A stretch of 23,944 nt of DNA, taken from positions 1-23,944 of the IMG/VR virus record IMGVR_UViG_3300033571_021661. The stretch is one strand, 5' to 3'. This document shows positions 2,367-17,067 of this stretch, in pieces. Below the pieces are notes generated by a model, which did no database searches, was not told where the DNA came from, and saw only the letters and a list, made by a program, of their open reading frames with translations. The position numbers and the translations under genes were made by a program. This stretch comes from a virus. Numbering within the stretch: position 1 is the stretch's first letter; each line of letters begins with the position of its first letter.

Positions 2367-2374
2367 TATTTATT
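2367..2374 (-). promoter_or_regulatory. T4-type late promoter candidate for the 678-residue fibre
   Basis: The minus strand reads AATAAATA, a 7-of-8 match to the T4 late promoter octamer TATAAATA. It ends 24 bases from the fibre ATG and overlaps the stop codon of the preceding gene. An initiation point a few bases downstream would leave a short leader containing GGGA before the ATG. In AT-rich DNA such matches also arise by chance, so the position is the main support. Confidence 0.5.
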
Positions 2375-2894
2375 ACAAACACAACTTTGTAGTTTTGTTG
2401 ATTCCAAAGCTGATGCCAGCTCTGGGCATTCTACTGGTGGTTTGGTGCCACATATCACGTGGTATGAAAATTAAATCATTTGGTTTTAGTGTATAGTTGT
2501 ATTCTATATCGTTATCCCAAACTTTCCAGTCAATTTCTCCGATAGTTTGCCAATACCAAACATCATAGTAATCTTGATGTTTTGGAAAACAATCAGAAGA
2601 ACTACACATACTAATAAACCAACGAGCGTCTGCAGCATACTGAGGATCTAGCTTAGAAAACTCAGATAGCATTGTTCCGATAGTTGGATATTGCTCCACA
2701 TTATGAATAATCATTCCGAAATTATCGAGAATATGCATACCCGAATCATATTTTACTGCTTTGTCGATGCAAAAAATAACGTCTTCCCATGACAACAAAT
2801 CTAAATCTACGGACGATTTCCAATGTTTTTTATCACGATAACATTCTAAAAATTCTGAAGATTTTAAAAAATCAAATCTGGATGATTCAGACAT
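2373..2894 (-). CDS. JmjC/cupin-like 2-oxoglutarate oxygenase (putative)
   Basis: 173 residues. The core is double-stranded beta-helix-like: FPKHQDYYDVWYW supplies a candidate H106-x-D108 pair, and PNDLIFIPRDMWHQT supplies the distal H150. R158 (MPRAGISFG) sits where the 2-oxoglutarate carboxylate is usually held. The segment HQD...WQTIGEIDWKVW resembles JmjC/cupin_8 proteins, in which the iron pair is followed by a G-x-x-x-W strand. JmjC-type enzymes hydroxylate or demethylate protein side chains; the substrate here is unknown. It is about 60-100 residues shorter than most cellular JmjC hydroxylases. Only 3 bases separate it from the preceding gene. Assignment rests on motif order, so a non-catalytic cupin remains possible. 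Confidence 0.6.
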   Translation of the reverse strand: MSESSRFDFLKSSEFLECYRDKKHWKSSVDLDLLSWEDVIFCIDKAVKYDSGMHILDNFGMIIHNVEQYPTIGTMLSEFSKLDPQYAADARWFISMCSSSDCFPKHQDYYDVWYWQTIGEIDWKVWDNDIEYNYTLKPNDLIFIPRDMWHQTTSRMPRAGISFGINKTTKLCL

Positions 2895-2897
2895 TTA

Positions 2898-3482
2898 TTA
2901 AATTTCCGACTTAACACTAAACGTAGGCATTTCTTTTTTGCCGGTCAGCCATCCAGTAATAATATATTTTGTTTTATTAAATGGTGGATTTCCGCGATGT
3001 ACATGAGTAAATCCAGCAGGCCATATTGCAAACCTTCCTGCCTTAGGTTTTATTCTTAATCCTTGATATAAAAATTCTGTTTCACCGCCACTTTCTACGT
3101 CATTTAAATATAAAGTCCATGCTAGCATGCGATCAGTAGTATTATAATTGGTAGTTTCACAATGCCAGGTGTGATACCCGTCGCCGGTTAACGGTTTTGT
3201 TGATTGTATAATACAAATACTTGAAATAAGATCGATGCCTTTTAACCAAGTAAAGTCATCCGAATATTTGTTAAGACAGATCGACATATTTCGATATATG
3301 TGCTCGGCCCAATCTGGTCTACTTGCATCGAGAGGTATTTGATAATCTTGGATTGATAACCCGTCCGTTGAGGTTCGTCTGTGAACCAGTCCTTTTGTAC
3401 TAGAAAACTCGAACCATTTTATCAACTGATCGCATTCGTCGACCGACAACACATTGTCGTACCATCTAATAAAATTATCCAT
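2898..3482 (-). CDS. Prolyl-4-hydroxylase-like 2OG-Fe(II) oxygenase, HxE type (copy A)
   Basis: 194 residues with the P4Hc/2OG-FeII_Oxy_3 arrangement. GYHTWHCE gives the iron pair H107-x-E109, YLNDVESGGETEFLY (residues 125-139) is the family's hallmark strand, FTHVHRGNPP gives the distal His (H160 or H162), and K172 in KYIITGW is the likely 2-oxoglutarate ligand. The family hydroxylates proline or related residues using Fe(II), O2 and 2-oxoglutarate. The acidic ligand is Glu instead of the usual Asp, as in its two paralogues at 3487-4113 and 4735-5340. It has no signal peptide, so it should act in the cytoplasm. It follows copy B after 4 bases. The catalytic class is well supported; the substrate is not visible. 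Confidence 0.85.
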   Translation of the reverse strand: MDNFIRWYDNVLSVDECDQLIKWFEFSSTKGLVHRRTSTDGLSIQDYQIPLDASRPDWAEHIYRNMSICLNKYSDDFTWLKGIDLISSICIIQSTKPLTGDGYHTWHCETTNYNTTDRMLAWTLYLNDVESGGETEFLYQGLRIKPKAGRFAIWPAGFTHVHRGNPPFNKTKYIITGWLTGKKEMPTFSVKSEI

Positions 3483-3486
3483 TTAA

Positions 3487-4113
3487 TTACTCTAAAAAAT
3501 GTAACCAAGTATTCATAATATACTTGTCTCCAGTTAGTGGAGGGTTTCCTCTATGTGTGTGAGTGAAACTTCCAGGAACAATAATTATAGTGCCTGCGGT
3601 AGGTTTAACTCTTTTTCTTTGATATAAAAATTCTGTTTCACCGCCTTCCTCGACATCATTGAGATACACTATAACTAATAGTAATCGAGAACTAGTGTTC
3701 TCGCTGCCGTGTTCGCAATGCCATACGTGATATCCAGAAGATGGCTTTGTTTTTTGTATCTTAAAGGCACTGCGAAATCCGTGTTTACCTATAGATTCTA
3801 AGATGCCATATTGTTTCATATATTCGTTATAGCAGGGCCAAAACGATTTTTTAAATTCTTCTAAAAAATATAAATCCATACTAGATACAATTTCGTCCGA
3901 TGCTTCTAACGACATGGGAGAAGAGGACAGCCTATACGTATCTGTGTCTTTATCTATTAATCTTGTTTTTTCTAATTCTTGTCTATTAACAGTCATTCCC
4001 AAAGATTGAACCTGCTCATAATGATTGATTATTTTTTCACAGGTTTCCTTAGATAATGCATTATGAAAAATGCCAATAAAGTCGTTGATTTCGTAAGCCA
4101 CTTTGTTTTCCAT
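3487..4113 (-). CDS. Prolyl-4-hydroxylase-like 2OG-Fe(II) oxygenase, HxE type (copy B)
   Basis: 208 residues, clearly paralogous to the proteins at 2898-3482 and 4735-5340. Candidate iron ligands are H132 and E134 (GYHVWHCE) and H185 or H187 (FTHTHRGNPP). GGETEF is at residues 157-162, and K197 (DKYIMNTW) is the likely 2-oxoglutarate ligand. The N-terminal 100 residues are more variable and helical, as expected for the substrate-recognition part. It begins 2 bases after the stop codon of the YczE-like membrane protein. The ribosome site is weak: the ATG is preceded by CGGTAAAATAATT, so translation may be coupled to the preceding gene. All expected catalytic positions are filled. Confidence 0.87.
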   Translation of the reverse strand: MENKVAYEINDFIGIFHNALSKETCEKIINHYEQVQSLGMTVNRQELEKTRLIDKDTDTYRLSSSPMSLEASDEIVSSMDLYFLEEFKKSFWPCYNEYMKQYGILESIGKHGFRSAFKIQKTKPSSGYHVWHCEHGSENTSSRLLLVIVYLNDVEEGGETEFLYQRKRVKPTAGTIIIVPGSFTHTHRGNPPLTGDKYIMNTWLHFLE

Positions 4114-4115
4114 AA

Positions 4116-4727
4116 TTATTTTACCGGGCCAAAGTTAGGAATATTGAAAAAATTATGATTAAATCTCACACAAGGCTGGATTCCCCAACCTACAATTAAT
4201 AAAAACATCACAGTTCCTATTCCTACAGTGCCTCCAAGAAACCACCCACCTGTTAATAACAAAATTTCGATGACTCCCTTGAACAACCAGAATGGTCTAT
4301 TAGTCTTTTCAGACAACGAGACAGCAACTAAATCCATGGCTCTGATACCAAATCCGCTCATTAGTATTAGTGCGCTTCCCTGTAAACATAACAGAGATCC
4401 TGTGATCATTTCTATCACAGGTAACAACAACGAGGTATCATTTAGTGTCCATAGTCCAAAATCAATCATATATCCGCATAAGAAAAATGTTAGAAAAGTT
4501 GTGATCGGAGGAAATTTCCAATTATGAAAATATGACCATATCGCAAGGCACAAAATAGCAAATAAACTTTGTGTTGTTCCTATCATCAGTCCGAAGGTAT
4601 GTCTTACACCAACAGAAAACACATCTAAGGGATCTGCACCCATCCCGCTAATTATAAAAAAAGTTGCCCCTAACGAAAACAACACACATCCCAGAACATA
4701 CAAAATAAGTTGCTTAAAATTTATCAT
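4116..4727 (-). CDS. YczE-like integral membrane protein
   Basis: 203 residues with about five or six membrane segments (roughly 7-27, 45-64, 76-93, 101-124 and 148-183). It resembles the YczE/YyaS group of bacterial inner-membrane proteins, with GMGADPLDVFSVG near the first helix, GFGIRAMDLVAV after the fourth and LGGTVGIGTV in the last. The function of that group is not established; some members lie next to transport or regulatory genes. GAGG with good spacing precedes the ATG. It is inserted between two copies of the HxE oxygenase and is the only membrane protein in the island, which hints at an acquired host gene. Possible roles are transport of a substrate or product, or altering the host membrane; both are guesses. 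Confidence 0.75.
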   Translation of the reverse strand: MINFKQLILYVLGCVLFSLGATFFIISGMGADPLDVFSVGVRHTFGLMIGTTQSLFAILCLAIWSYFHNWKFPPITTFLTFFLCGYMIDFGLWTLNDTSLLLPVIEMITGSLLCLQGSALILMSGFGIRAMDLVAVSLSEKTNRPFWLFKGVIEILLLTGGWFLGGTVGIGTVMFLLIVGWGIQPCVRFNHNFFNIPNFGPVK

Positions 4728-4734
4728 ACTACCT

Positions 4735-5340
4735 CTATTTGTTAAAAACTACCCAGCTGGTAATGACATATTTAGTGTTGGATAATGGGGGATTTCCTCT
4801 GTGAGTGTGTGTATATGAGCCTGGCCACACAATTAATCTTCCTTGTTTAGATTTAATTCTTCTTGGATAATATAAAAATTCAGTTTCACCGCCTTCTTCA
4901 ACATCGTTGAGATAGAGTTGAAAAGCACAAACGCGGTCACTGGTAAACTTGTTTCCTTGCTCAAAATGCCAAGCGTGAAATCCCTGCCCTATTTCTGTTT
5001 TCTGTATCTTTAATTCGTCTATGCGAAGATCACAGTTTTCTGAAATAGTAAAATATTTGTTCTTTGCATATTCAGAAAAATGACTCCAGAAAATATCTAC
5101 AAATTCTTTTGAAAGTGTTCGAGTAGCGTTGAGCGTATATGACGATTCTTCAGATAGCATAATTGATCGATCATCTTTCAACGATCGGTCGACTCCGCTT
5201 TCTTGTTGTCTAGTATAGCATAAGCCGGCAGCATTGGCATTTTCAAAAAAATCTATTACTCGCTGACAAAACTCCGAACTATATGCATTATCAAAAACAG
5301 CGATAAAATCTTTTATATCAACATTGACTACTTGTTCCAT
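4735..5340 (-). CDS. Prolyl-4-hydroxylase-like 2OG-Fe(II) oxygenase, HxE type (copy C)
   Basis: 201 residues, third member of the HxE group. Iron ligands are H125 and E127 (GFHAWHFE) and H178 or H180 (YTHTHRGNPP). YLNDVEEGGETEFLY lies at residues 143-157, and K190 (KYVITSW) is the likely 2-oxoglutarate ligand. It shares most of the C-terminal half with copy B, including the RGNPPL stretch, while the first 100 residues differ, consistent with duplication and a changed substrate-recognition part. TAGGA lies about 10 bases before the ATG. The next gene in transcription is the membrane protein, which starts 7 bases after its stop. The family assignment is firm; the target is unknown. Confidence 0.87.
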   Translation of the reverse strand: MEQVVNVDIKDFIAVFDNAYSSEFCQRVIDFFENANAAGLCYTRQQESGVDRSLKDDRSIMLSEESSYTLNATRTLSKEFVDIFWSHFSEYAKNKYFTISENCDLRIDELKIQKTEIGQGFHAWHFEQGNKFTSDRVCAFQLYLNDVEEGGETEFLYYPRRIKSKQGRLIVWPGSYTHTHRGNPPLSNTKYVITSWVVFNK

Positions 5341-5343
5341 AAT

Positions 5344-6084
5344 TTAAAATCCTATAGGGCATTTTCCTGCCGATTCTCTAAATTTTTTATTCTTTTTATA
5401 ATTTCCAAAAAAACTAGATACATAGTTTTTTAAATATATTTGATCATATTCTTCTGATGTAACAGCATGACATCTAATTTCAACATCATACTCTGTTAAA
5501 GGAATTAGGTGAACCAATGGCATTCCAGCATTAACTGTAACTGCATTATCTTTTACAGGAAAAAACAAATTTAATTGTGTTGAAGACTGATCTTTATAGT
5601 TTACTATACCTGGCGGTGTGTAAAAATTTCCCAAGTGTGTTATCTGATTCCAGAAAGGTGAAGTATAATAAAACTTACAACCTGTTTTTTCCTTTAACAA
5701 CCACGGGGATTGAATTTTTACATGTATAAAATCATTAAACTCTGTTCCGAATTCTAAGCGGTTATGAGAATCTATCCTCGTATCAGTATCATTAGATGCT
5801 AATTTGCAACCCCAATTTCCATCCTTGTCTGTTTTTATGATCATATCAATCCATGCCGGTATAATAAATCCATGATTATAAAATTGTCTGATTCCATCAC
5901 ATTGTTTAATAGTCGATCTATTAATTGCAACATCATTAAGTTCATTAACAGTATAAAAAGGAGAGATATTTTTCCACCATCGAGGTAAGAATTTTTTTGA
6001 AGGTTCTATTGGAAATAGATCGTTAATTCCAGAAATTTTGGTAAATGCATCTACCACTATCTTTTTCTTTTTAAAGAAAAACAT
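5344..6084 (-). CDS. Conserved phage protein of unknown function
   Basis: 246 residues from the chosen ATG at 6084. That start is preceded by AAGGA at good spacing and sits 2 bases after the methyltransferase stop codon. An in-frame ATG at 6111 would overlap that gene and has no ribosome site. Visible landmarks are a PSKKFLPRWWKN stretch at about 28-39, STIKQCDGI at about 57-65, GFIIPAWIDM at about 72-81 and a short C-terminal KCPIGF tail. I have seen this pattern (PS...LP.WW, then TIK.C and a G.IIP..D strand) in hypothetical proteins of marine phages, but I cannot name a function. There is no metal triad like that of its neighbours, no membrane segment and no nucleotide-binding motif. Its place between methyltransferase and hydroxylase genes suggests a shared pathway. 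Confidence 0.75.
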   Translation of the reverse strand: MFFFKKKKIVVDAFTKISGINDLFPIEPSKKFLPRWWKNISPFYTVNELNDVAINRSTIKQCDGIRQFYNHGFIIPAWIDMIIKTDKDGNWGCKLASNDTDTRIDSHNRLEFGTEFNDFIHVKIQSPWLLKEKTGCKFYYTSPFWNQITHLGNFYTPPGIVNYKDQSSTQLNLFFPVKDNAVTVNAGMPLVHLIPLTEYDVEIRCHAVTSEEYDQIYLKNYVSSFFGNYKKNKKFRESAGKCPIGF

Positions 6085-6085
6085 T

Positions 6086-6688
6086 TTAATCCTTAATCCA
6101 ATACCATACATCGTTGTCGCAGAATTTAAGATCGATTCCTGTATCTGCTATAAACTCAAATACCGCTTTCTGAACTCCCGGCCAACTAAAATCATGCCCG
6201 GAAATAATTCCGCCATGTTTTACTTTAACATAATAATTCTTTATATCTTTGGCTACAGATTCGTAAGAATGTTCACCATCTATAAAAATATAATCTAAAG
6301 AACTATCTAATATTTGATCCACCGTGTCTTCAGATTTAGCTTCGATAAATTCTACTCGATCGCCGTACGGAGAAATATTTCTTTTAAACATATTTTTTAT
6401 ATTATCGGCATTATTTTGACTTAAAAATATTCCAGGTACTCCCTGTCTAGAACCGTCTTGATCATATAAGATAAATGGATCAATTGCATATAATTTTTTA
6501 AGATTTGGCAACGCATCTAAAAAATATACCGAATTAAATCCGTGTGCCACACCAATTTCACATCCCACAAGTTCTTTTCTAGGAAGAATTTCTATCAGCC
6601 CAACAGCCGAACACCGATCTGGTGGCGGCCAATAGCCCATAGCTTTGATTTCTTCTACAGTTTCTTTGAAATAAAATTCTTCTTGCAT
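6086..6688 (-). CDS. Class I SAM-dependent methyltransferase (Methyltransf_24-like)
   Basis: 200 residues with a Rossmann-type methyltransferase pattern. CEIGVAHGFNS (residues 43-53) is motif I binding S-adenosylmethionine, YAIDPF (67-72) carries the acidic residue for the ribose, DYIFIDGEHSYESV (132-145) is the post-IV strand with the conserved DG.H, and GGIISGHDF (159-167) follows. This combination is typical of Methyltransf_24 proteins and of cephalosporin-hydroxylase-like enzymes, often near sugar or natural-product genes. The acceptor is not deducible. It heads a run of minus-strand genes, divergent from the plus-strand oxygenase across an 89-base gap. No clear ribosome site is present: AAGTGG lies just before the ATG. 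Confidence 0.85.
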   Translation of the reverse strand: MQEEFYFKETVEEIKAMGYWPPPDRCSAVGLIEILPRKELVGCEIGVAHGFNSVYFLDALPNLKKLYAIDPFILYDQDGSRQGVPGIFLSQNNADNIKNMFKRNISPYGDRVEFIEAKSEDTVDQILDSSLDYIFIDGEHSYESVAKDIKNYYVKVKHGGIISGHDFSWPGVQKAVFEFIADTGIDLKFCDNDVWYWIKD

Positions 6689-6777
6689 CCACTTATATAT
6701 CTATCTTATTGAACGGTTATTCAATTATTGAAACTCATATTTTTTTCCTACAACAGAATTAAACATTAAATAGTGAC
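6689..6777. promoter_or_regulatory. Divergent intergenic region with palindromes
   Basis: The longest gene-free stretch in the window, between the divergent methyltransferase and plus-strand oxygenase genes, so it should hold a start signal for each. It contains TTGAA at 6709, TTCAA at 6720 and TTGAA at 6728. The last two form a perfect 13-base palindrome (6720-6732, TTCAATTATTGAA), which could be an operator. On the minus strand TATATAAG lies just before the methyltransferase ATG, too close to be an ordinary -10 for that start. I find no convincing -35/-10 pair or late octamer, so promoter function rests on gene orientation. Confidence 0.35.
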
Positions 6778-7248
6778 ATGCTATTTGAAAACATACTCGA
6801 TTCGACAGATTTAAAATTATTGCAACAGGCAATTATTTACGAAACGTCTAATTTTCCCTGTCTAATGGTACCACGATATCAAACTTATCCCACAATGCAT
6901 CGAAAGTATAAATTCTATCCTTTTTGGAAAACTCTAGAAAATAAAGTTTTGAAATCTGCAGAGCAGTTATATGGTAAAGAATTTATTGTTCACTCTTGTT
7001 GGTTTAATTTATGTAAGTCTGACAGCAATTTTGAGTGGCACACTCATCAGGGGTTTGATTCTACCTGCGTGTTTTATGCTGAGAATTGCGAAAATAACGG
7101 AACCATAATTCGCACTGAAAACGGAGTTGTACAAACTCCTGCCAAGGATAACAGTTTAATTTTTATGGATATTGGAGTAGAGCATACAGTTCCTCCTTGG
7201 CAGGGGGAAGATCGTCTATCAGTTGCTTTTCAATTGGTTTTCAAATAG
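6778..7248 (+). CDS. Small HxH-type 2OG-Fe(II) oxygenase-like protein, plus strand
   Basis: 156 residues, the only plus-strand gene in the island. EWHTHQGFDST gives a candidate pair H88-x-H90, LIFMDIGVEHTV the distal H136, and EDRLSVAFQL the Arg (R146) that holds 2-oxoglutarate. The order and spacing match its HxH neighbours, which end in R-I-S-x-x-F-N, but the usual SGV.Y strand after HxH is replaced by STCVFYAEN. At 156 residues it is 40-70 shorter than they are, mainly at the N-terminus. The ATG lacks a clear Shine-Dalgarno sequence. Its last 19 bases overlap the convergent halogenase gene. The class is probable; the unusual orientation suggests separate acquisition or an inversion. Confidence 0.65.
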   Translation: MLFENILDSTDLKLLQQAIIYETSNFPCLMVPRYQTYPTMHRKYKFYPFWKTLENKVLKSAEQLYGKEFIVHSCWFNLCKSDSNFEWHTHQGFDSTCVFYAENCENNGTIIRTENGVVQTPAKDNSLIFMDIGVEHTVPPWQGEDRLSVAFQLVFK

Positions 7249-8825
7249 GCCGATAAATCATCTATTGAAATTTGATTGTATAGATTTAAATTCGCAAGTT
7301 CTTTTTTGTAAAAATCGTTGTTAGACACAGACATTGAAAGAAATATTTCATCTTGCTTTCTTCTAATTTCATAATGAGCTTCTGCCATCTTATCAAGATT
7401 GAATTGTTGCAATTCATCCGCAGCAATTTTAGGATCTAATAATTTCATCCCAATTAGTATCTGCATCCAGAGTGTGTTACCTAAATCATAAAAATTATCA
7501 TTTAATCTGCCTTTATAATCTGTGGTACGAGGCATCCGTGTTTTCCACACAGCAAGTTTACTTTTTAATTCTTCGCTTCTTCTTTTCTCAGATGAAGCTT
7601 CTATCCAAAATTCTGTATCTTTTCTCGGAGTTATATAATGCATTACTATGAAATCTTTAATATCGTCCCATATACTAGTCATAGATTTATTGTATCTGTC
7701 TTGCATGTCAATGTTATTGAAATCCATCGTATGTGTAAAATATTGTTCTATAAAATGATTTATTTGAAGCATAGTCATGTGAATTGATGTTGCCTCTAAA
7801 GGTTCAACAAACGCACTGGCTAATCCTGAAGACAATACATTTTTAATCCAAAATTTTTCTAATCTACCTGCTTCAAATTTTATATCGTTTTGAGGATTTA
7901 TTTTAAATCCTAGATCTTTTTCAATTTCTTCTTGAGCTTTTTCTGGGGTTGTAAAATTATCATTATACACATAACCACATCCTTTTCTGTGCTGTAAAGG
8001 TATATCCCACATCCATCCATATTTTTTAGCAATAACATGTGTGTAATTATTAATTATAGTGTCTTCGGTATTAGCTACATGAAACGGCATGGCCCGGTTG
8101 ACCATTAGTTCGTTATTATAGCTAACGAATTTATTTTCAAATTCTTTCTGAATCAAAACTCGAAATGTGCCGGAACAATCTATAAAAAGATCCCCTTCTA
8201 TGCGTTTTCCAGATTTAGTAATAATACATTTAACGATCCCGTCGTTAAATTTTTCTGTTCCTACGATTGTGTCGTCTATATAGCTACAATCAGGATGAGA
8301 TAACACAGCTTTTTTTAAATATTGACCTACTTTATAAGTATCTAAGTGATATGCTACATGATGATATCTTAAATCAATTCTTTGCCCGTTATTGATTAAA
8401 AAAGGCATTCGATTGTTTAGCATAAACTGAGATTGATGCGCTTGATATTTTAAATTATTTGCCACATGAAATATTCTAAAATAATCATAGGTATATGAAG
8501 GATATCCTGTGTCGTTGCGATACTCGTCACCTAGCGGTGATGTAAATGATTCTCCGATTGTATGCCAGTCAGTATGTTTGATTCCTATTTTATAAGTCGA
8601 TCCTGTCTTTTCTAAAAAATCTTTTTCGTCAATGCAAATTTTTCCTTGCAAATTTATTAATCCGTTAAATCGACCGGTTGTGCTTTCTCCTACTCCGATA
8701 ATAGGTATTTCTTCTGCAGACACAACCTCAATTTTAACATCTACTGTTTTTTGTAAAAAATTTAGTGCAGTTGCCCAGCCGGCTGTGCCTCCGCCTACAA
8801 TAACTATTTTTTTTATTTGTTTCAT
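7230..8825 (-). CDS. Flavin-dependent tryptophan-halogenase-type enzyme
   Basis: 531 residues, full length for the family. GGGTAGW (residues 11-17) is the FAD-binding loop and GVGEST (44-49) the second flavin-contact motif. W271-x-W273-x-I-P is the W.W.IP signature of flavin-dependent halogenases. K79 in STYKIGIKH falls at the number of the catalytic lysine of PrnA and RebH, and E344 in EPLEAT fits the catalytic glutamate. Such enzymes use FADH2, O2 and chloride or bromide to make HOX, which the lysine relays to an electron-rich ring; a reductase must supply FADH2, and none is present here. The ATG overlaps the preceding stop as ATGA. The substrate could be tryptophan, a peptide or another aromatic. 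The enzyme class is firm. Confidence 0.92.
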   Translation of the reverse strand: MKQIKKIVIVGGGTAGWATALNFLQKTVDVKIEVVSAEEIPIIGVGESTTGRFNGLINLQGKICIDEKDFLEKTGSTYKIGIKHTDWHTIGESFTSPLGDEYRNDTGYPSYTYDYFRIFHVANNLKYQAHQSQFMLNNRMPFLINNGQRIDLRYHHVAYHLDTYKVGQYLKKAVLSHPDCSYIDDTIVGTEKFNDGIVKCIITKSGKRIEGDLFIDCSGTFRVLIQKEFENKFVSYNNELMVNRAMPFHVANTEDTIINNYTHVIAKKYGWMWDIPLQHRKGCGYVYNDNFTTPEKAQEEIEKDLGFKINPQNDIKFEAGRLEKFWIKNVLSSGLASAFVEPLEATSIHMTMLQINHFIEQYFTHTMDFNNIDMQDRYNKSMTSIWDDIKDFIVMHYITPRKDTEFWIEASSEKRRSEELKSKLAVWKTRMPRTTDYKGRLNDNFYDLGNTLWMQILIGMKLLDPKIAADELQQFNLDKMAEAHYEIRRKQDEIFLSMSVSNNDFYKKELANLNLYNQISIDDLSAYLKTN

Positions 8826-9499
8826 TTTTGTTCTTTCTTTATATTTAGATCTGCCATTGAAACATTATGCATTTTTGGATCATTCAAATTTAAATAGTCA
8901 GATCCCAGTAACGTTCCAATGTTTCCTTCAATCCATGTATTGAAAGAAAGACTAATCCTATCATGCTTACACACATTTTTTTTAACTGCATGATCAATGT
9001 AAGACGGAAATAGTATTAGGTGTTTTTTTTGAACTCGAGTTTCAAATCTAGTTGAGTTATACTCGTTAATTTCTGAAGGATAAAGTTTTAACGGAGTATA
9101 CATCATATTTTTTTCACTAAAAAATTCTATGGGAGCGGGTTCGTCAGTCATATAGAACACTCCGCTTATTATACTGTTTACATGAAAATGGCGAAAATGA
9201 TCGGTATTGTTGGGATTTTTATTCAACCAAGAAATAGTAGGAAAAATATTATTTTCAATACACATTACATTTTTCTTAAAATTATCTAAGTGTTCTTGAA
9301 TAAAGACTTTAATCCGTGATAATTCTGGAAAATTTAAAATATTAACAGAATCCGATCCTTTATTTTTATTCACAAAATGATCTGAGCATTGATAAAGATC
9401 AGGACGATGTATGAATTCGAGTTCTTCATTAGAAAACTCTTCTTCAAATTTTGCTATGTACAGCGGTGCCGGAAAGAGATTAGAAATTTGATAATTCAT
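8822..9499 (-). CDS. 2OG-Fe(II) oxygenase, HxH type (TIGR02466-like)
   Basis: 225 residues. HFRHFHVNSIISGVFYM contains the H-x-H (H104, H106) followed by the SGVFY strand typical of TIGR02466/2OG-FeII_Oxy_5 proteins. LFPSYIDHAV supplies the distal H170, and HDRISLSFNTW supplies R181, the likely 2-oxoglutarate ligand. The start of the protein (SNLFPAPLYIAKF) matches the family's N-terminal FP.P....E pattern. The family has no established substrate that I know of. A lysine-rich tail of about 35 residues beyond the core is not shared with its paralogues. It starts 1 base after the preceding gene's stop and overlaps the halogenase start by 4 bases, so the two are probably translated together. Confidence 0.83.
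   Translation of the reverse strand: MNYQISNLFPAPLYIAKFEEEFSNEELEFIHRPDLYQCSDHFVNKNKGSDSVNILNFPELSRIKVFIQEHLDNFKKNVMCIENNIFPTISWLNKNPNNTDHFRHFHVNSIISGVFYMTDEPAPIEFFSEKNMMYTPLKLYPSEINEYNSTRFETRVQKKHLILFPSYIDHAVKKNVCKHDRISLSFNTWIEGNIGTLLGSDYLNLNDPKMHNVSMADLNIKKEQK
8842..8849 (-). promoter_or_regulatory. Possible late promoter upstream of the halogenase
   Basis: The minus strand reads TCTAAATA, 7 of 8 to TATAAATA. It ends 16 bases before the halogenase ATG, inside the 3' end of the preceding oxygenase gene. Spacing would allow a leader of about ten bases. The same octamer recurs at 11790-11797 in a position too close to an ATG to work, so chance occurrence is a real alternative. Confidence 0.25.
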
Positions 9500-9500
9500 A

Positions 9501-10007
9501 TTATATTTTTTTAAACAAATAATTTATCACATATCGTATTCCTAAAAAATGTGAAGTAGTTGGTCTAGAGCAATGATGTATATTTGAATCAAAGACTACT
9601 GCTCGTTGAGGTATTGGAAGAATTGATTTTATAATTTCGTATTGTTCCGGGTTGAAAAAAATAGTTTCTCCTCCCCAATTAATATGCCATTGTTCGTGTG
9701 GATATAAAATTACACTAAAATCCCCGCCAGTATCTTGATGAATGTCTCCATGCGATCCTGTTTGATGTGCTATAGCCCAACATCGAACTAGTTTATAATT
9801 ACCATCGGGCAATAACTTCTGTATTTTTGAAATTAAATCTAAAAATAATTCAACATTATTTAAATCAGCTCGAAAAAATATACGCTGGCTTCCGACGTTG
9901 CCGGTTGATGTGTGTGTTCCGGAAAATATAGGCCCGTTGAGATATGTTAAAATCTTAGATTGTTCGTCATCGGATAAAAAATTATCGTAGATATTAATAA
10001 TAGACAA
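9501..10007 (-). CDS. 2OG-Fe(II) oxygenase, HxD type (SM-20/PHD-like)
   Basis: 168 residues, compact. HGDIHQDTGGDFSVILY gives the iron pair H90-x-D92. INWGGETIFF (109-118) is the WGGET strand seen in SM-20/prolyl-hydroxylase-domain proteins, RAVVFDSNIHHCSRP carries the distal His (H144 or H145), and R158 (GIRYVINYLF) is the 2-oxoglutarate ligand. It opens with IYDNFLS, as many P4H-like proteins do. The start codon is TTG at 10007, preceded by GGAG with 8-base spacing; no in-frame ATG lies nearby, and the TTG sits 1 base from the upstream stop codon. In cells this type hydroxylates prolines in regulatory or ribosomal proteins; the phage target is unknown. Confidence 0.85.
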   Translation of the reverse strand: MSIINIYDNFLSDDEQSKILTYLNGPIFSGTHTSTGNVGSQRIFFRADLNNVELFLDLISKIQKLLPDGNYKLVRCWAIAHQTGSHGDIHQDTGGDFSVILYPHEQWHINWGGETIFFNPEQYEIIKSILPIPQRAVVFDSNIHHCSRPTTSHFLGIRYVINYLFKKI

Positions 10008-10008
10008 G

Positions 10009-10578
10009 TTACCAACTCCAAGATACGAATGAATATCGAGTTCCTGCGGTCACTGAATTTACTCGATGTGGAAACATAAAATTTGAAGGAAATATTAATA
10101 AGCTACCGGCAGACATCGGAATCACTTCGCCGTCCCACATTATAAATTCGCCGCCTTCAAAATCGTCATTAAGTAATCCTACCATAGATAATATCGGAAC
10201 TCCTTGCCTGTTTCCGTCAAATAAACTATGGATATGATCACAATGCAGTTTCATATCGGTATTTTCAGAATATCGATTAAAACGAATAGGAGTGTATCCG
10301 TTCCATTTATTCCACCAATTAAATTCTGCGAAATCATTTAGAATATATCGTTCCAATGCAAACCAAAGTCTTTCGTTTATAATATTTCGAATCGGTATAT
10401 CACTATAGCTTACACTTAATTCGTTTTCTGTTGAATTTAATTCTTTAGTTTGAGAATTATAAAATTGATGATCTTTCCATTGTGCTCGTGCGATTAAATC
10501 ACTTACTGCAAAGTTACACATTGGAGGGTCTAAAAACCCATCGTACAATTTAACATATTGTCGTAGATCGTAATCCAT
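10009..10578 (-). CDS. 2OG-Fe(II) oxygenase, HxD type
   Basis: 189 residues. MKLHCDHIHS supplies H112-x-D114, LLNDDFEGGEFIMWDG (135-150) is the GGEF strand, SLLIFPSNFMFPHRV gives the distal H171, and GTRYSFVSW gives R181 for 2-oxoglutarate. Between iron pair and GGEF lies GNRQGVPILSMV, an insertion that may form a substrate loop. GGGA precedes the ATG. This architecture, P4Hc-like with a GNRQG loop, is one I associate with T4-like marine phages. It is preceded after 11 bases by an HxH oxygenase and followed after 1 base by the TTG-started gene. The catalytic class is confident; the target is not identifiable. Confidence 0.86.
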   Translation of the reverse strand: MDYDLRQYVKLYDGFLDPPMCNFAVSDLIARAQWKDHQFYNSQTKELNSTENELSVSYSDIPIRNIINERLWFALERYILNDFAEFNWWNKWNGYTPIRFNRYSENTDMKLHCDHIHSLFDGNRQGVPILSMVGLLNDDFEGGEFIMWDGEVIPMSAGSLLIFPSNFMFPHRVNSVTAGTRYSFVSWSW

Positions 10579-10589
10579 TGCTGTCCCAA

Positions 10590-11189
10590 TTAAATTTGTA
10601 AATTTGTCAAACCGCTGACATCGCCGATATCACCAGATACGAATGTGTTAAATGCTAAACTTATTCTAGTTCCGACACTTTTAGTTGTAGTAACCATATG
10701 TGTTAACGACGAGGGAAAAATAATTAGATCGTTCGTTTTAACTGAAAATTGCCAACTATCAGAATTAAACACATTATGTTCTCTCGGAGAAATTTGAATT
10801 TGTCTATAATCTCTATTAAAAAAGAATATCGAGTCGACGTTTTCTTCGGCTTCGATATAAAAAACTCCCGATAGCAGAGAATTAGGGTGGTCGTGACGAT
10901 GATGATACTCTCCAGGTTCTGTAAAATTAATCCATGACTGGGTAATCTCTAGTTTACAATTTGTTTTGGGCTTGTAGACATTTTCAAAATATGTATCTAG
11001 CGATGACTGAATAAAATCACGGATTTTTACTAGTTCTTGACAATTTAAAACACTTACATTAGAAGTCATGGTGTTTCCCATACTTCGACGTGTCGGTTGA
11101 TTTTTTACAAACGCACTTTCTGAGGATGATAACGATTGGTCATACTCAAAAAAAGCCACAGGAGATGGAAACAGTGTATGTAATAACAT
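10590..11189 (-). CDS. 2OG-Fe(II) oxygenase, HxH type (TIGR02466-like)
   Basis: 199 residues. GEYHHRHDHPNSLLSGVFYI is a textbook form of the family's central motif, with H99-x-H101 and the SGVFY strand. DLIIFPSSLTHMV supplies the distal H164, and GTRISLAFNTF supplies R175. The N-terminal HTLFPSPVAFFEY and the C-terminal FVSGDIGD stretch resemble the protein at 8822-9499, so the two are probably paralogues. Its ATG overlaps the previous gene's stop by one base and is preceded by an AT-rich stretch without a good ribosome site, which points to translational coupling. Enzymatic activity is likely; no substrate is known for the family. Confidence 0.85.
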   Translation of the reverse strand: MLLHTLFPSPVAFFEYDQSLSSSESAFVKNQPTRRSMGNTMTSNVSVLNCQELVKIRDFIQSSLDTYFENVYKPKTNCKLEITQSWINFTEPGEYHHRHDHPNSLLSGVFYIEAEENVDSIFFFNRDYRQIQISPREHNVFNSDSWQFSVKTNDLIIFPSSLTHMVTTTKSVGTRISLAFNTFVSGDIGDVSGLTNLQI

Positions 11190-11788
11190 TAAGAAAAATT
11201 AAAAGATATTGAAATTCTATCTTCTGTTGATAGATTCGCACCTACACTGTGTTTTAACCATCCTGGAAAAATTACCAAGGTTCCTTGAACAGCTTCAAAC
11301 ACAGCCCAACCGTCAGTGAAAAAACTTTTTTGATTAGGATTGGTAAAATGTTCTCCACCGTCGCTGCGCATGAATTCTATAGATCCTGAATTTTCAGGCT
11401 TTTTAATATAGTATGTTCCTGATAAAATTGCACCAGGATGCACATGCAATTGATTATAATTGTATGATCCGTTTATATTGGCCCATAAATTAGTTAGCGT
11501 TAAGTTTTGTAAACTTAGTTCTTTGGCTACTGAATCGACTACATTTAGTATTTGATTTAACAGTTCTTTCAAATCTTCGTGATCTAGATTTAAATCTTTA
11601 CTTTGCCAGCCGCCTTTATTGCTGTATGTTCTGCCTTCTTGGTCTTGTTCTTTGACAGAGTAGATAAACTTTTCTAATTTGTCGTTATCAATAGAAAGTT
11701 CAGAGGTCGAAATAACTGTTGGAAAAATTATTCGATTATTAATTTTAGTATCCGGTACTGGATTGTTTTGAGGTGGTATATGCATCAT
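11189..11788 (-). CDS. 2OG-Fe(II) oxygenase, HxH type (TIGR02466-like)
   Basis: 199 residues. NQLHVHPGAILSGTYYI gives H115-x-H117 with the SGTYY strand, LVIFPGWLKHSV the distal H180, and EDRISISFNFS R191 at the very C-terminus, so the protein ends just after the last core strand. A mid-protein segment (RTYSNKGGWQSKDL) resembles the 'S.GGWQS' substrate region of cellular TIGR02466 proteins. Two ATG codons occur in a row at 11788 and 11785; AGGA lies 11 to 14 bases upstream, and either could be used. The leader also contains TCTAAATA, too close to the ATG to be a promoter. It sits 30 bases after the JmjC-like gene. Confidence 0.85.
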   Translation of the reverse strand: MMHIPPQNNPVPDTKINNRIIFPTVISTSELSIDNDKLEKFIYSVKEQDQEGRTYSNKGGWQSKDLNLDHEDLKELLNQILNVVDSVAKELSLQNLTLTNLWANINGSYNYNQLHVHPGAILSGTYYIKKPENSGSIEFMRSDGGEHFTNPNQKSFFTDGWAVFEAVQGTLVIFPGWLKHSVGANLSTEDRISISFNFS

Positions 11789-11818
11789 ATATTTAGATAT
11801 TCCTATGTAGTAAATTGT

Positions 11819-12547
11819 TTAAATCTGATTAATTGTATAGTGGTTCCGGTCAATACTATACTCCGTCGGTTCGTTAAATTTTGGCCAACAAGGTATACTG
11901 ATTGACAATCGTTTAGTTTCGGGCATCGCTACATGATAAGTTCTAGCAGGAATATATAATAGATCTCCTGGATGCAAATCAACTGTTAGTGCCGGGACAA
12001 ATTTTTGAATTTCTTCATCAGTTGGTCGATAGCCGGAAGCAACTAGAGTAGATGCTCTGTTTTCAAACACAGTCCACGATGTTACTCCTTCTATTTGTAA
12101 TATAAAATTTGAAGGTATGTCTTCATGAACTTTGAAAGATTTTGATCCAGATAATCCACAATACACATGCATTGCAGCATCAGTATAAAATAAAGTCTCG
12201 ATAAGTTTTAATAGTTCGTTAGTGGCTGTGTTGTAAAACCCATAATTATTAATGATCAGCGTATGACCTAGATCTAGCTGTTCAAATAAAAATTTTTTAT
12301 CTTGAACTAGTTTGTTAAAAACCCATGCTTTTTTGTATTCTGGAATTTTTATTTTATCGTTGGTGTTTGAATCTATGATATCAAAATTATATAACACTGG
12401 ATTATTCAGACATTCTTCAACAGTATTCCAAGTAAGAAATTCTTCCGGAGCTGTTATTAATTTTTCAAAAACAAAAGGCTTGTCTGTTGTTAAAAGATGA
12501 GAATCTTTAAAAAGTTTCTGTCTAATATTGTTGTAATTATTTGACAT
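11819..12547 (-). CDS. JmjC-type (cupin_4/ribosomal-oxygenase-like) 2OG oxygenase
   Basis: 242 residues, the longest oxygenase here. The pattern fits JmjC hydroxylases of the bacterial YcfD/RoxA group: FKVHEDIPSNFILQIEGVTSW (split at residues 138-158) carries H141-x-D143 followed by the Q.EG..W strand, and VDLHPGDLLYIPARTYHVA (189-207) carries the distal H205. R213 near the end (KRLSISI) may contact 2-oxoglutarate. YcfD-type enzymes hydroxylate an arginine in ribosomal protein L16, which raises the idea of a ribosome-directed role, but the C-terminal winged-helix and dimerisation parts of those enzymes are missing here. The ATG overlaps the upstream stop by one base. The class is well supported; the target is inference. 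Confidence 0.82.
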   Translation of the reverse strand: MSNNYNNIRQKLFKDSHLLTTDKPFVFEKLITAPEEFLTWNTVEECLNNPVLYNFDIIDSNTNDKIKIPEYKKAWVFNKLVQDKKFLFEQLDLGHTLIINNYGFYNTATNELLKLIETLFYTDAAMHVYCGLSGSKSFKVHEDIPSNFILQIEGVTSWTVFENRASTLVASGYRPTDEEIQKFVPALTVDLHPGDLLYIPARTYHVAMPETKRLSISIPCWPKFNEPTEYSIDRNHYTINQI

Positions 12548-13167
12548 TATATTTTTGACTTCTCTGTATCAAATAAAATATTTCCAGACATAGATATTCG
12601 AGTGTCGTCTACTGTATAAAACGGATATACACAGTGCGATAGAGATGCCGGAAACATCATTATTTTTCCTTCAAAACTTTTATCAATCTTAATTATTTCT
12701 GAAAAAGAATTTCCAGTTATTGTCGAATAGTTAAATTGAAAACACGATGCATACATGCCGTCTTTAGTTTCTTCTTCAACATCATACGGAATTTTAAACC
12801 ATGCACTATAACTTAAAATTCCGTCGTGTGTATGAATAGGAATAAATTCTCCGCGTTTTTGTATATTAAACCAAGGATTTCCGGCTGTAAAAGAAACACT
12901 GTGTGATAGAGATTTATATGTTAATAAGTGATCTTGATATATATTAAGATATATGTCTTTTAATTTCATAATGTATTCTATAAATTCTGGCTGATGTGTT
13001 TGTTTCATAAAAAAATGTTTGGCAACACCGGCACCCGATAATCCAGAAGTCATTACTGTGTTATTTTTTTCTAAAGATGATGCTTCAGATTTTAGTTTAA
13101 GATAAAGATCTGTTGGGATTTCATCAATAATCACTCCAGAGTTACTTAAAATTAATTCTTTTATCAT
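12547..13167 (-). CDS. 2OG-Fe(II) oxygenase-like, HxH type, phage family
   Basis: 206 residues. WFNIQKRGEFIPIHTHDGILSY (residues 99-120) holds H112-x-H114 and D115, KIMMFPASLSHCVYP the distal H178, and DDTRISMSGNI the likely 2-oxoglutarate Arg, R190. The run H-T-H-D makes the iron pair ambiguous: H112-x-H114, or H112 with D115. It differs from the TIGR02466 set by a longer stretch between the iron pair and the distal His (FKIPYDVEEETKDG...), which may be a substrate lid. It starts 11 bases after the preceding stop and overlaps the JmjC gene by one base. The ribosome site is poor. Assignment to the superfamily is likely. Confidence 0.78.
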   Translation of the reverse strand: MIKELILSNSGVIIDEIPTDLYLKLKSEASSLEKNNTVMTSGLSGAGVAKHFFMKQTHQPEFIEYIMKLKDIYLNIYQDHLLTYKSLSHSVSFTAGNPWFNIQKRGEFIPIHTHDGILSYSAWFKIPYDVEEETKDGMYASCFQFNYSTITGNSFSEIIKIDKSFEGKIMMFPASLSHCVYPFYTVDDTRISMSGNILFDTEKSKI

Positions 13168-13178
13168 TTATTTTTTCT

Positions 13179-13748
13179 TTATAAATTAGTTGGTAATGCA
13201 CCAAACTGCAAAGCAAGGCTATATCGATATTGAGTAGCCATCATTGTTGGCGTCATAATCATATGAGGTATAGTTCCGTCAAATACAACCATCCTTCCAG
13301 GTTTATAGATACAGGTATACACAGCTTCGTCTAAATTATCGTCCATAAACAATGTATGCCCGCCCCATTCTAATTTCCATGTTATGCTAGCATAGTACAG
13401 TACCGTAACTCCAGCAGCGTCGCAATGAATAAAATTTCTTTCGCTAGGTGGAGAAAAATTTACTCTTATTAATTTTAGTTGACGGTTCTGTAAATCATAT
13501 CTATCGGTTATCTCTTTGAATAACGGAGTACTAGAAAATTCCATTTTGTCTATATCTGCTGGTGAAAATACAGAATAGATTTGTTGTATTTGATCGTGTT
13601 GTTCCTGACCCGATCCGTCGTTTCCTCCGATTTTATATATTGAATTTTTTATATAATTAAAAAATTTATATCGATCATTGAATGAAAAATAATCATCGTA
13701 CACATCTAATACTCTATTGTTGGGCAGAGAAATTTTTGTCATTGTCAT
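13179..13748 (-). CDS. 2OG-Fe(II) oxygenase, HxD type (SM-20/PHD-like)
   Basis: 189 residues. RNFIHCDAAGVTVLYY gives H108-x-D110, LEWGGHTLFMDD the WGG.T strand (residues 128-132), GRMVVFDGTIPHMIM the distal H162, and QYRYSLALQF R175. The order and the WGG.T strand match the protein at 9501-10007, so these two are probably related by duplication. In the WGGET motif Glu is replaced by His here. ATGA overlap with the preceding gene fixes the junction; a second in-frame ATG lies two codons in (MTMTK). AGGG lies about 10 bases upstream. Cellular relatives hydroxylate protein prolines. Confidence 0.84.
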   Translation of the reverse strand: MTMTKISLPNNRVLDVYDDYFSFNDRYKFFNYIKNSIYKIGGNDGSGQEQHDQIQQIYSVFSPADIDKMEFSSTPLFKEITDRYDLQNRQLKLIRVNFSPPSERNFIHCDAAGVTVLYYASITWKLEWGGHTLFMDDNLDEAVYTCIYKPGRMVVFDGTIPHMIMTPTMMATQYRYSLALQFGALPTNL

Positions 13749-14365
13749 TTGATGGTTACCCTGTTAATTGCGTCTTCTGTGCCGAAACCGCCTTTCACAA
13801 AAGAATTAAATCCAATAATTCTACGATTTTCGTTAGATAAATTTTCTCTCGCTCGATGCCTTAACCAACTTGGAAAAATTACAATAGTTCCTTGATTGGG
13901 TTTAATAGCCCAATTAGAACTGTTGAAGATATTCCATTCTGTAATGTCATATTCAAAATTAAAATCTTTAGACATCGGGCGAGAATAATAATGAAATTCT
14001 AAATCTCCATCTGGAACGTCTACATAATATACTCCTGAAAATATCGAGTTTGGATGCATATGGCTATGGTGAGATGAATTTTTTGGATTTCTTGTGGCCC
14101 AGGAATCTGTTATATAAAAATCTTGTTTTATTTTTAGAACTTCTTTGGTGTATATTTCTAACTCTTTTTGAAGATCCGATTTTAAATTGTTAAATGCTGT
14201 TTCTTCGAGAATAGTTTTATTTTTTGAAATATAATTATCATAAGGCAACTTAACTTCGTCTAAATTTTCTAAAAAATTTCTTTCGTCTGATGTTAGTGTT
14301 CTAGACAGATCTTTAACAAAGATTGGTATTCCGGCTAGTGGTATAACTTCAAATCTATTGCTCAT
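13745..14365 (-). CDS. 2OG-Fe(II) oxygenase, HxH type (TIGR02466-like)
   Basis: 206 residues from the ATG at 14365, chosen because GAGGA lies 7 bases upstream. An upstream in-frame ATG at 14401 would add 12 residues inside the preceding gene and has no such site. HHSHMHPNSIFSGVYYV gives H102-x-H104 and the SGVYY strand, TIVIFPSWLRHRA the distal H170, and ENRRIIGFNSF R181/R182. The N-terminus (VIPLAGIPIFVKDL) is the family's usual opening. It overlaps the end of the upstream gene by 11 bases and the start of the next by 4, so the three genes are tightly coupled. The family is firm; the substrate is unknown. Confidence 0.86.
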   Translation of the reverse strand: MSNRFEVIPLAGIPIFVKDLSRTLTSDERNFLENLDEVKLPYDNYISKNKTILEETAFNNLKSDLQKELEIYTKEVLKIKQDFYITDSWATRNPKNSSHHSHMHPNSIFSGVYYVDVPDGDLEFHYYSRPMSKDFNFEYDITEWNIFNSSNWAIKPNQGTIVIFPSWLRHRARENLSNENRRIIGFNSFVKGGFGTEDAINRVTIK

Positions 14366-14993
14366 GTTTATCCTCAATAAACATAAACTGACTAATTGCA
14401 TATCTACCCAACCCTTGGTTTTGAAATTCTGGTAACATATTCACAGTATCAACTTCGTGTGATAAAATTGATGGAAAGATCAAACATCGATTGTTTTTAC
14501 ATTCGAGTGTAAGAGTATTTTCAAATATAATGTCTCCGCCTGTAAATGCTTTGGGTTCTTTGTACAAGTAATAAATTACAGTTATCATTGATGCATCATG
14601 ATGTAATTTATAATAATTAGTATTTTCAAAATAGTGTACTTTGGTAGAATCGTTATTGACATTTGTTATAAGTTTAAAAAATTTATGTGCTTGTATCAAT
14701 GAAGATACCAATTCTGCATGATATATTGATCTTGTCTCTGTTATTATATTTGATGCTGATTTATCAGCATATACCGCGTCTAAAACTGTTCCGATGTTAT
14801 TTTTTAGATAGATTTTTTCGCCGTTGACGGTGTTGTAACCGCCACCTGTTCTATCGGGTGTACGCATTTTATTTGAGCCGTCATTTAGATATTCCAGTTC
14901 GCGCCAAATGTTTTTACAACTATTTTCGCTAAAATAATCATCAATAACAACAATTGGAAGATCGCAAGATTTGTACACTTCTATTTTGGTCAT
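14355..14993 (-). CDS. 2OG-Fe(II) oxygenase, HxD type (first gene of the island)
   Basis: 212 residues. YYKLHHDASMITVIYYLY gives H131-x-D133, AFTGGDIIFEN (149-159) is the GG(D/E) strand, CLIFPSILSHEVDTV supplies the distal H179, and GLGRYAISQFMF supplies R197. The opening PIVVIDDYFSENSCKNIW is the common N-terminal helix-strand of P4H-like enzymes. It is the most upstream gene of the oxygenase island on the minus strand. Its Shine-Dalgarno sequence (AGGA, 8 bases before the ATG) lies inside the 3' arm of the inverted repeat at 14996-15034, so folding of that hairpin would hide it. The enzyme class is confident. Confidence 0.86.
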   Translation of the reverse strand: MTKIEVYKSCDLPIVVIDDYFSENSCKNIWRELEYLNDGSNKMRTPDRTGGGYNTVNGEKIYLKNNIGTVLDAVYADKSASNIITETRSIYHAELVSSLIQAHKFFKLITNVNNDSTKVHYFENTNYYKLHHDASMITVIYYLYKEPKAFTGGDIIFENTLTLECKNNRCLIFPSILSHEVDTVNMLPEFQNQGLGRYAISQFMFIEDKHEQ

Positions 14994-15055: not shown

Positions 15056-15400
15056 TTATGCTTTTGGTATACGTTGTTTTACAGATAACACATGTTTATA
15101 CCACTCGGATGTTTCTTTTCCGGGCAATCTACCATAATGAATATCGTCAAATAACATTCCAAGCTGTGAATACGGATCTCCGTAGAAATGCACCCGTTCT
15201 GGTTGCCACGGTTTTGGACCGTAATCAGTTAGTTGAATTTTGCCAGTTTCTGTATTGTACTCATAATCTGCTTCTTGATCATATGTTTCTGGTCCTTCTG
15301 CCCAAAAATAATTATCGTGTACAGGAAATTTTAATTCGGCATTGTCGACGACTTGTGTTACTGTATTTGTTGATTTAATAACTAATGAATAATATGGCAT
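15056..15400 (-). CDS. Small protein following a fibre gene, function unknown
   Basis: 114 residues, acidic and rich in aromatic residues, with no signal peptide or membrane segment. The C-terminal half (GDPYSQLGMLFDDIHYG, then EWYKHVLSVKQRIP) follows a pattern I know from small proteins beside fibre genes in T4-like marine phages: a D-P-x-x-Q-L stretch followed by W-Y-x-x-V-x-x-V-K. Fibre chaperones and assembly proteins often lie just downstream of the fibre they serve, so an assembly role is plausible but not shown. AAGGAG precedes the ATG, and the gap to the 434-residue fibre is 9 bases. The terminator-like hairpin follows its stop codon. Confidence 0.7.
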   Translation of the reverse strand: MPYYSLVIKSTNTVTQVVDNAELKFPVHDNYFWAEGPETYDQEADYEYNTETGKIQLTDYGPKPWQPERVHFYGDPYSQLGMLFDDIHYGRLPGKETSEWYKHVLSVKQRIPKA

Positions 15401-16714: not shown

Positions 16715-16727
16715 TTGATTCTCCTAA

Positions 16728-17048: not shown

Positions 17049-17067
17049 AATTTATTCTCCATGTATA

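Follow-up and report, generated by a model that had tools for sequence, protein, structure and literature searches.

We analysed a window of 23,944 bases that forms the complete IMG/VR record IMGVR_UViG_3300033571_021661, itself a fragment with open ends, from a marine virus of bacteria. Between positions 2373 and 14993 the window holds an island of 19 presumed genes, taken from a list of open reading frames (ORFs) and designated A to S in the order of their coordinates. By sequence comparison, the window is the richest example, among the sequences scanned, of a conserved module made up of a glycine-rich tail-tip gene, a small gene (Y), a flavin halogenase (I), gene F with a dUTPase-like fold, and 7–15 Fe(II)- and 2-oxoglutarate-dependent (2OG) or JmjC-type oxygenases, including the pair N and O. 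The enzymes of this cassette may modify the newly made glycine-rich tip before the virion is assembled, a proposal to which we give about an even chance on the strength of gene families and gene linkage.

Gene order of the module in related phages

Profiles were built for the tip, Y, I, F, N and O and used to read gene order in named phages and loci. The tip, Y, the halogenase and the oxygenases occur in this order in eight named cyanophages: Syn9, S-RIM44, S-CREM1, P-TIM40, Sf-FP1, S-WAM1, S-SZBM1 and P-RSM6. In the first five, and in IMG/VR loci L013 and L015, the genes run tip, Y, halogenase, F, N, O; the F profile finds no match in S-WAM1, S-SZBM1 and P-RSM6. All six genes are present in the window; read along the direction of transcription, O precedes N there, and the first ten oxygenases come before the halogenase and F. 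The fibre-distal runs of Syn9, S-RIM44 and S-CREM1 (Kyanoviridae) have this core in common with the window, but contain a smaller number of oxygenases, with a single O-like JmjC gene in each run. The window also differs in having a tip protein that is longer and divergent, a methyltransferase and a YitT-like gene, and in the two features of gene order just given.

N and O have reciprocal best hits in six tip-cassette cyanophages, outscoring the window's own paralogues, and N has a weaker match in a cassette-less S-RIM44 isolate. For most other oxygenases of the window, those six phages offer only distant partners, so the rest of the cassette varies.

Counted per 13 kilobases (kb) over 254 profile-scanned sequences, oxygenases number 15 in the window (the highest value), 14 in one locus and 13 in 13 loci. 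These per-locus counts are estimates, since the first oxygenase profiles undercounted S-CREM1 (6 against 9 annotated 2OG/JmjC genes, which stand consecutively) and the wider seeds used later were permissive; halogenase counts per locus were not used, as overlapping ORF fragments are likely. An earlier note on this DNA had taken the density of oxygenases to be exceptional and had argued from it for a dedicated modification system. With eight named cyanophages sharing the neighbourhood and IMG/VR loci reaching 13–14 oxygenases, uniqueness is refuted. The neighbourhood is routine in known cyanophages, which does not settle its function, and the idea of a dedicated system now draws on gene linkage beside the fibres instead.

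Two alignments were used to scan IMG/VR. The tip alignment returned 308 relatives, and 78 distinct loci were retained from the best 80. Wherever a locus left room for the gene, it was present: Y in 66 of 66, the halogenase in 51 of 51, F in 47 of 47, and N and O in 38 of 38 each. The O alignment returned 196 relatives, of which 80 were retained; 59 had at least 7.5 kb upstream and were scored, and 21 with less room were not. Tip, Y, halogenase and N are present in all 59 scored loci and F in 58. The two sets share contigs, so these counts are not additive, and the queries came from module-bearing phages, which biases the scans toward that tip subfamily. No earlier description of the module as such was found in the accessible parts of the open-access literature searched.

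The glycine-rich tip and its linkage to the cassette

The distal fibre gene of the window carries at its C terminus a glycine-rich domain recognised by PF21722 and phrog_863. Its product matches a purpose-built tip profile at 4e-63, being itself one of the seeds, and has no PDB sequence match up to an E-value of 1. PF21722 is present in nine of ten fibre proteins from six cassette phages and in eight of ten further fibre proteins, one of these eight below the cut-off; the two without it are a protein of the cassette-less S-RIM44 isolate and the Phage_tail_APC protein of S-SSM7. In this subfamily, 80 tips share one W, Y, F and N and several H with little or no variation, and the window tip keeps the conserved residues W254, P257, Y316, F328, N360, H370, H389 and H401.

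By sequence, to which the comparison of the window tip is confined, a glycine-rich C-terminal domain likewise sits at the fibre tip in S16 and PP01 gp38 and Pam3 gp24. The domain of PP01 gp38 binds the receptor via loops, and S16 gp38 is presumed to be alike (PMC12892980). For cyanophage Pam3 gp24, receptor binding by the glycine-rich domain has been proposed, and the fibre is assembled with a phage-encoded chaperone (PMC9608196). The available portions of these sources make no mention of modification. In S-CREM1 (OP535465.1), a tip-like stretch at 54758–55282 with five in-frame TAA codons lies just upstream of the intact tip and looks like a decayed tip gene.

Linkage between tips and oxygenases was measured in the 16 cyanophage genomes of a 2010 comparison. 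PF21722 has a match in nine of them, eight over the cut-off. Oxygenase loci were counted genome-wide by a two-family search, and 33 of the 99 loci in these nine genomes lie within 13 kb downstream of PF21722, where 7.8 were expected (standard deviation 3.8); none of 5000 rotations gave a count as high. Among seven genomes chosen for the cassette, the six with PF21722 have 22 of 81 loci in this zone (6.1 expected).

Two S-RIM44 isolates of one species, NC_047734 and KX349295, offer a direct comparison. Their DNA is 96% identical on one side of a swapped region and 94–95% identical on the other. Within it, one isolate carries three glycine-rich tips, Y, two halogenases, F and at least four oxygenases (gp158–160 and gp162; three by Pfam and one JmjC), with gp157 and gp161 as likely further oxygenases. 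The other has a tip without PF21722, which is absent genome-wide, one PF13759 oxygenase and no cassette, as read from annotation and a profile scan of the region. Glycine-rich tip and cassette are present or absent together in this pair.

A further test was anchored on E, a non-core oxygenase and a query independent of the tip, and used the best 80 of at least 598 relatives. Within a distance of 2 kb, 19 of 64 loci have a same-strand glycine-rich ORF ending upstream, and 0 of 61 have one starting downstream. Within 4 kb the corresponding counts are 18 of 49 and 2 of 41, and within 3 kb the upstream count is 18 of 54 against 9.0 by random placement (maximum of 2000 placements, 16).

Cassette enzymes and their possible substrates

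Thirteen of the fifteen oxygenases score above the Pfam curated cut-off, and H and Q were assigned through PHROGs (6e-13 and 2e-19). By superfamily, thirteen are Fe(II)/2OG oxygenases, and A and O are of the JmjC/cupin type. A putative metal-binding pair is present in all fifteen, as HxD (A, K, L, O, Q, S) or HxE (B, C, E) in nine and as HxH (H, J, M, N, P, R) in six; a distal His and a C-terminal Arg or Lys are visible by eye in the translations. The six genes with HxH in place of HxD/E are all those of PF13759 type in the window. HxH is also present in the solved PF13759 proteins 3bvc and 2rg4, looks like a trait of that family, and could give these enzymes unusual chemistry. Pairwise identity within the set, where BLAST detects any, is at most 40% (maximum C–E), which rules out recent tandem duplication. 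The shortest oxygenase, H, has the expected double-stranded beta-helix fold in an AlphaFold2 model (predicted local distance difference test score, pLDDT, 84.4) that aligns to the prolyl hydroxylase PHD2 with a Z of 16.7 and 2.5 Å over 146 residues; in an alignment with 14 relatives, H88, H136 and R146 do not vary and H90 hardly does. The remaining 14 are placed by family only, so the fold anticipated for all is seen in the model of one. Otherwise, the description of fifteen of the 19 genes as distinct oxygenase-like genes with an iron pair, accompanied by a halogenase and a methyltransferase, was borne out.

Q matches phrog_274, which is labelled DNA endonuclease V. K and S match it too, yet pass PF13640, as does L, which matches phrog_3531. 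In Syn9 (L099, 15682–21145), L012 and L117, cassette genes are labelled 'DNA endonuclease V', 'minor coat protein' and 'ferrochelatase'. In view of the matches of K, L, Q and S, some such labels are probably transferred mislabels that hide oxygenases.

Gene I is a flavin-dependent halogenase by family and motifs: its translation contains GGGTAG and WMWDIP, which correspond to the halogenase motifs GxGxxG and WxWxIP. In the PDB, Thal and PrnA outscore VirX1 of cyanophage Syn10, a protein of the same family that reportedly iodinates diverse substrates. The halogenase reading frame of S-PM2 (NC_006820.1, 121319–122608) contains one in-frame TAA.

F has no Pfam match and has a dUTPase fold in its AlphaFold2 model (pLDDT 82.9), which rules it out as a sixteenth oxygenase. 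The model aligns with 2y8c_C (Z 11.6, 2.8 Å over 126 residues) and all 50 listed entries are dUTPases; the best Foldseek match is a weak one, with an E-value of 1.4e-3. C71, K132, W137 and P198 are invariant columns in the F alignment. A single-sequence search of IMG/VR gave no relatives of F or H, and relatives of F were later recovered in the fetched loci. Relatives of Y occupy the same position in P-RSM6, S-SZBM1, S-WAM1, S-CREM1 and L013. With no accepted Pfam match among nine members, Y was discarded as a Pfam-recognised chaperone; it is suspected to be a chaperone or adaptor, and could be a counterpart of the chaperone with which the glycine-rich fibre of Pam3 is assembled. The YitT-like membrane protein D has no relative among the fetched loci.

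Under tip modification, the island would represent an expanded version of a host-recognition module that is conserved in marine T4-like phages. The glycine-rich, presumably receptor-binding tip would be the product of the last fibre gene (15410–16714), and the genes behind that one would supply Y as a possible adaptor or chaperone, the flavin halogenase, F with its dUTPase-like fold and a large number of Fe(II)/2OG oxygenases. Before the virion is assembled, the oxygenases, acting in the cytoplasm, would hydroxylate loop side chains of the freshly synthesised tip, and the halogenase would halogenate such side chains; the collagen-like fibre at 307–2343 might be modified as well. Different enzyme sets could then produce different tip chemistry and, through it, different receptor binding or stability. 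Enzyme activity, the tip as substrate and an effect on binding are inferred. The pairing of a structural tip with soluble modifying enzymes is so constant that action on the tip is its simplest account. The nearest solved relatives of E (prolyl-4-hydroxylase, 5hv0) and O (NO66/MINA) are protein hydroxylases by name and count in favour of this account; the similarity is weak and their substrates are not transferable. The small intergenic gaps count in its favour too, as they leave little room for a separate precursor peptide, a candidate we rejected. The collagen-like fibre was set aside as the sole target, its collagen-like stretch being short and the glycine-rich tip being the recurrent partner. 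Among the targets proposed in the earlier note, fibres probably fit best, with host ribosome, surface proteins and a small molecule still on the list.

The 2OG oxygenases and halogenases of T4-like cyanophages are without a known role, and linkage to the tip offers them a definite, testable substrate. The accessible parts of published work suggest DNA repair, nitrogen signalling or antibiotic protection for them, and no proposal that they modify the tip was found in the open-access literature searched. If modification of the tip is true, it adds a post-translational layer to phage receptor binding and identifies a natural substrate of the viral halogenases. More tentatively, and at somewhat less than an even chance, marine phages might employ a multi-enzyme assembly line, made up of protein hydroxylases and a halogenase, to diversify chemically the glycine-rich receptor-binding tip of their own tail fibres; host range would then depend in part on post-translational chemistry as well as on sequence. 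Experimental evolution of S-TIM4 is reported to have mutated mostly structural genes (mainly fibre and baseplate) and one 2OG gene, ORF23 (PMC6224464). A virion proteome table for S-SZBM1 lists genes 51–54, and a term search of the source's available text did not find 46, 48, 49 and 50 (PMC9146016). Genes 48 and 49 are its tips, and the absence of these four genes from one table is not evidence of modification.

Several observations weigh against tip modification. The phages share ancestry, which weakens the rotation result, and the IMG/VR loci are redundant: clustering by tip identity reduces the 38 tip-anchored loci scored for N and O to 9 groups at 80% and to 5 at 70%. In the nine genomes, the 13-kb zone leaves out 66 of the 99 oxygenase loci, and the seven genomes without PF21722 each still have 5–9 such loci. 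S-SCSM1, for which 24 2OG-Fe(II) oxygenase genes per genome are given in the accessible part of its description (PMC9602691), resembles the window in its many diverged oxygenases from the same Pfam families; unlike the window, it has none of its 19 loci (two-family search) within 13 kb downstream of its PF21722 match. Halogenases are found far from tips in P-SSM2 and Syn1 and in genomes without PF21722 in S-PM2 and S-SCSM2R, and S-SM1 has a glycine-rich tip and many oxygenases with no halogenase. In Syn30 (L121), an O-like JmjC gene at 7186–7746 sits in the replication region, and the 22 kb read there contain neither a tip nor a halogenase. The window tip is itself divergent, having A284, I341 and Y346 where E, N and H are invariant in the 80 other tips. 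Among solved structures, L is closest to PiuC, an iron-uptake factor that is not named as a protein hydroxylase, and N to the uncharacterised protein 3bvc. Finally, the swap between the S-RIM44 isolates includes fibre genes (the large fibre is 51–59% identical in protein), so this pair ties the cassette to the recognition region and not strictly to the tip.

The linkage would be explained equally well if the cassette modified host receptor or envelope precursors seen by this tip type, masking the cell against reinfection or competing phages, because tip and cassette would then see the same receptor. This is the main rival to tip modification, and we judge it unlikely. Sugar-related genes in two loci keep it alive. 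In S-SSM7 (L119, 4270–18380), glycine-rich tips are followed by annotated carbamoyltransferases, heptose enzymes, a halogenase, a cysteine dioxygenase and oxygenases, by gene content another chemistry behind a tip. In S-SCSM2R (L098, 4822–14333), oxygenases are annotated together with glycosyltransferases and radical SAM, AHBA-synthase-like and amidinotransferase-like genes. D is a membrane-type protein, and a pelagimyophage paper proposes that glycosyltransferases encoded in this region alter the surface to guard against coinfection (PMC7029224). However, no island gene matches a glycosyltransferase or lipid-A type family in Pfam or PHROGs, and none is so annotated within the eight named cassettes, where some genes are hypothetical. 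The protein hydroxylases nearest to E and O also speak against modification of the host surface, as does the absence, by eye, of an evident signal peptide at the start of any oxygenase translation in the window.

Base composition bears on a third explanation. The content of guanine plus cytosine (GC) is 33% in the island and 45–47% in its flanks, and named cassettes are lower in GC than their own fibre genes in seven of seven compared. The low GC of the island would suit a recombination hotspot in which unrelated auxiliary genes have gathered by accretion, their targets being as different as DNA repair, the ribosome and the fibres. So would the variability of the cassette outside its core and the description of the region as hypervariable in the accessible part of PMC7029224. 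Accretion nevertheless seems distinctly unlikely, given a core found in every locus with room (F being missing from one) and glycine-rich genes that lie upstream but not downstream of the E relatives at 2 kb.

The side-by-side occurrence of halogenase, methyltransferase and oxygenases might instead mark a biosynthetic cluster for a small halogenated and hydroxylated molecule, such as one serving the antibiotic protection suggested for cyanophage PrnA in the available parts of PMC9964418 and PMC2984593; the kinship of I with VirX1 could be seen in the same light. We hold such a cluster to be improbable. No scaffold-building enzyme or carrier is recognised among the 19 island genes (the rest of the genome lies outside the window), there is little room for a precursor ORF, and it would be hard to see why every scored locus couples such a cluster to a structural tip gene. 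Highly improbable, in our view, is that the oxygenases serve to consume 2-oxoglutarate and so steer host nitrogen signalling or energy, as proposed by Sullivan et al. 2010 (accessible part of PMC3037559). The scatter of oxygenases through many cyanophage genomes fits that proposal, but it leaves the fifteen diverged enzymes, the reciprocal best hits of N and O, the halogenase and the tip linkage without explanation.

Layout of the window

Coordinates of the genes in the window are given in Table 1. As the earlier note had it, the island lies between fibre modules: the right flank (15410–23943) is a fibre module, with Y beside it, and the left flank is a fibre or connector gene. The description of the island as one transcription block did not hold, since H lies on the plus strand and splits a block otherwise on the minus strand. 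Neighbours on the same strand within the island are at most 30 nucleotides apart, and the only larger gaps are those of 89 nucleotides between G and H and 62 nucleotides between S and Y. A megablast search of 50,697 phage records, a set from which the same or very near genomes were possibly excluded, gave no DNA relative of the window.

Table 1. Genes of the window, with strand and supporting matches
Feature	Coordinates	Strand	Evidence
Fibre/connector protein, short collagen-like GPQGPPGPAGATGAG stretch (seen in translation)	307..2343	-	phrog_677 3.1e-46
A, JmjC-type oxygenase, HQD	2373..2894	-	PF08007 7e-8
B, 2OG-Fe(II) oxygenase, HCE	2898..3482	-	PF13640 2.7e-12
C, 2OG-Fe(II) oxygenase, HCE	3487..4113	-	PF13640 1.9e-10
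D, YitT-like membrane protein	4116..4727	-	PF02588 1.1e-3, below cut-off
E, 2OG-Fe(II) oxygenase, HFE, prolyl-4-hydroxylase-like	4735..5340	-	PF13640 3.6e-11; PDB prolyl-4-hydroxylase 5hv0 3.2e-5
F, module core gene, dUTPase-like fold	5344..6111	-	phrog_7084 3.4e-26; AlphaFold2 model
G, methyltransferase, Methyltransf_24/TylF-like	6086..6688	-	PF13578 4.8e-20
H, short 2OG-Fe(II) oxygenase, HTH	6778..7248	+	phrog_81 6e-13; model vs PHD2 Z 16.7
I, flavin-dependent tryptophan-halogenase family protein	7230..8825	-	PF04820 1.7e-100; PDB Thal 6e-65, VirX1 6qgm 1.3e-42
J, 2OG-Fe(II) oxygenase, HFH	8822..9499	-	PF13759 9.3e-16
K, 2OG-Fe(II) oxygenase, HQD, TTG start in ORF list	9501..10007	-	PF13640 1.9e-8
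L, 2OG-Fe(II) oxygenase, HCD	10009..10578	-	PF13640 3.6e-13; PDB PiuC 3.3e-5; phrog_3531 4.4e-17
M, 2OG-Fe(II) oxygenase, HxH	10590..11189	-	PF13759 1e-20
N, 2OG-Fe(II) oxygenase, module core gene, HVH	11189..11788	-	PF13759 4.8e-23; PDB 3bvc 7e-14
O, JmjC/cupin oxygenase, module core gene, HED	11819..12547	-	PF08007 9.6e-15; PDB NO66 1.6e-7
P, 2OG-Fe(II) oxygenase, HTH	12547..13167	-	PF13759 1.6e-9
Q, 2OG-Fe(II) oxygenase-like, HCD	13179..13748	-	Pfam 3.1e-4, below cut-off; phrog_274 2e-19
R, 2OG-Fe(II) oxygenase, HMH	13745..14401	-	PF13759 2.8e-21
S, 2OG-Fe(II) oxygenase, HHD	14355..14993	-	PF13640 1.4e-8; best relative S-SM1_56, 37%
Y, conserved small protein between tip and cassette	15056..15400	-	phrog_1787 1.8e-22
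Glycine-rich tail-tip protein, presumed receptor-binding; glycine-rich domain from about residue 248	15410..16714	-	PF21722 2.2e-9; phrog_863
Small tail-fibre protein	16728..17048	-	phrog_11338 6.7e-12
Giant tail-fibre protein, open at window end	17071..23943	-	PHROG tail fibre matches, phrog_9851 7.6e-99 and others

The T4-type late promoter consensus TATAAATA has 0 matches in the window where 2.7 are expected, a difference that carries no information on the timing of expression. The fibre or connector protein of the left flank has a weak plastocyanin-like match at its C terminus (E-value 0.095).

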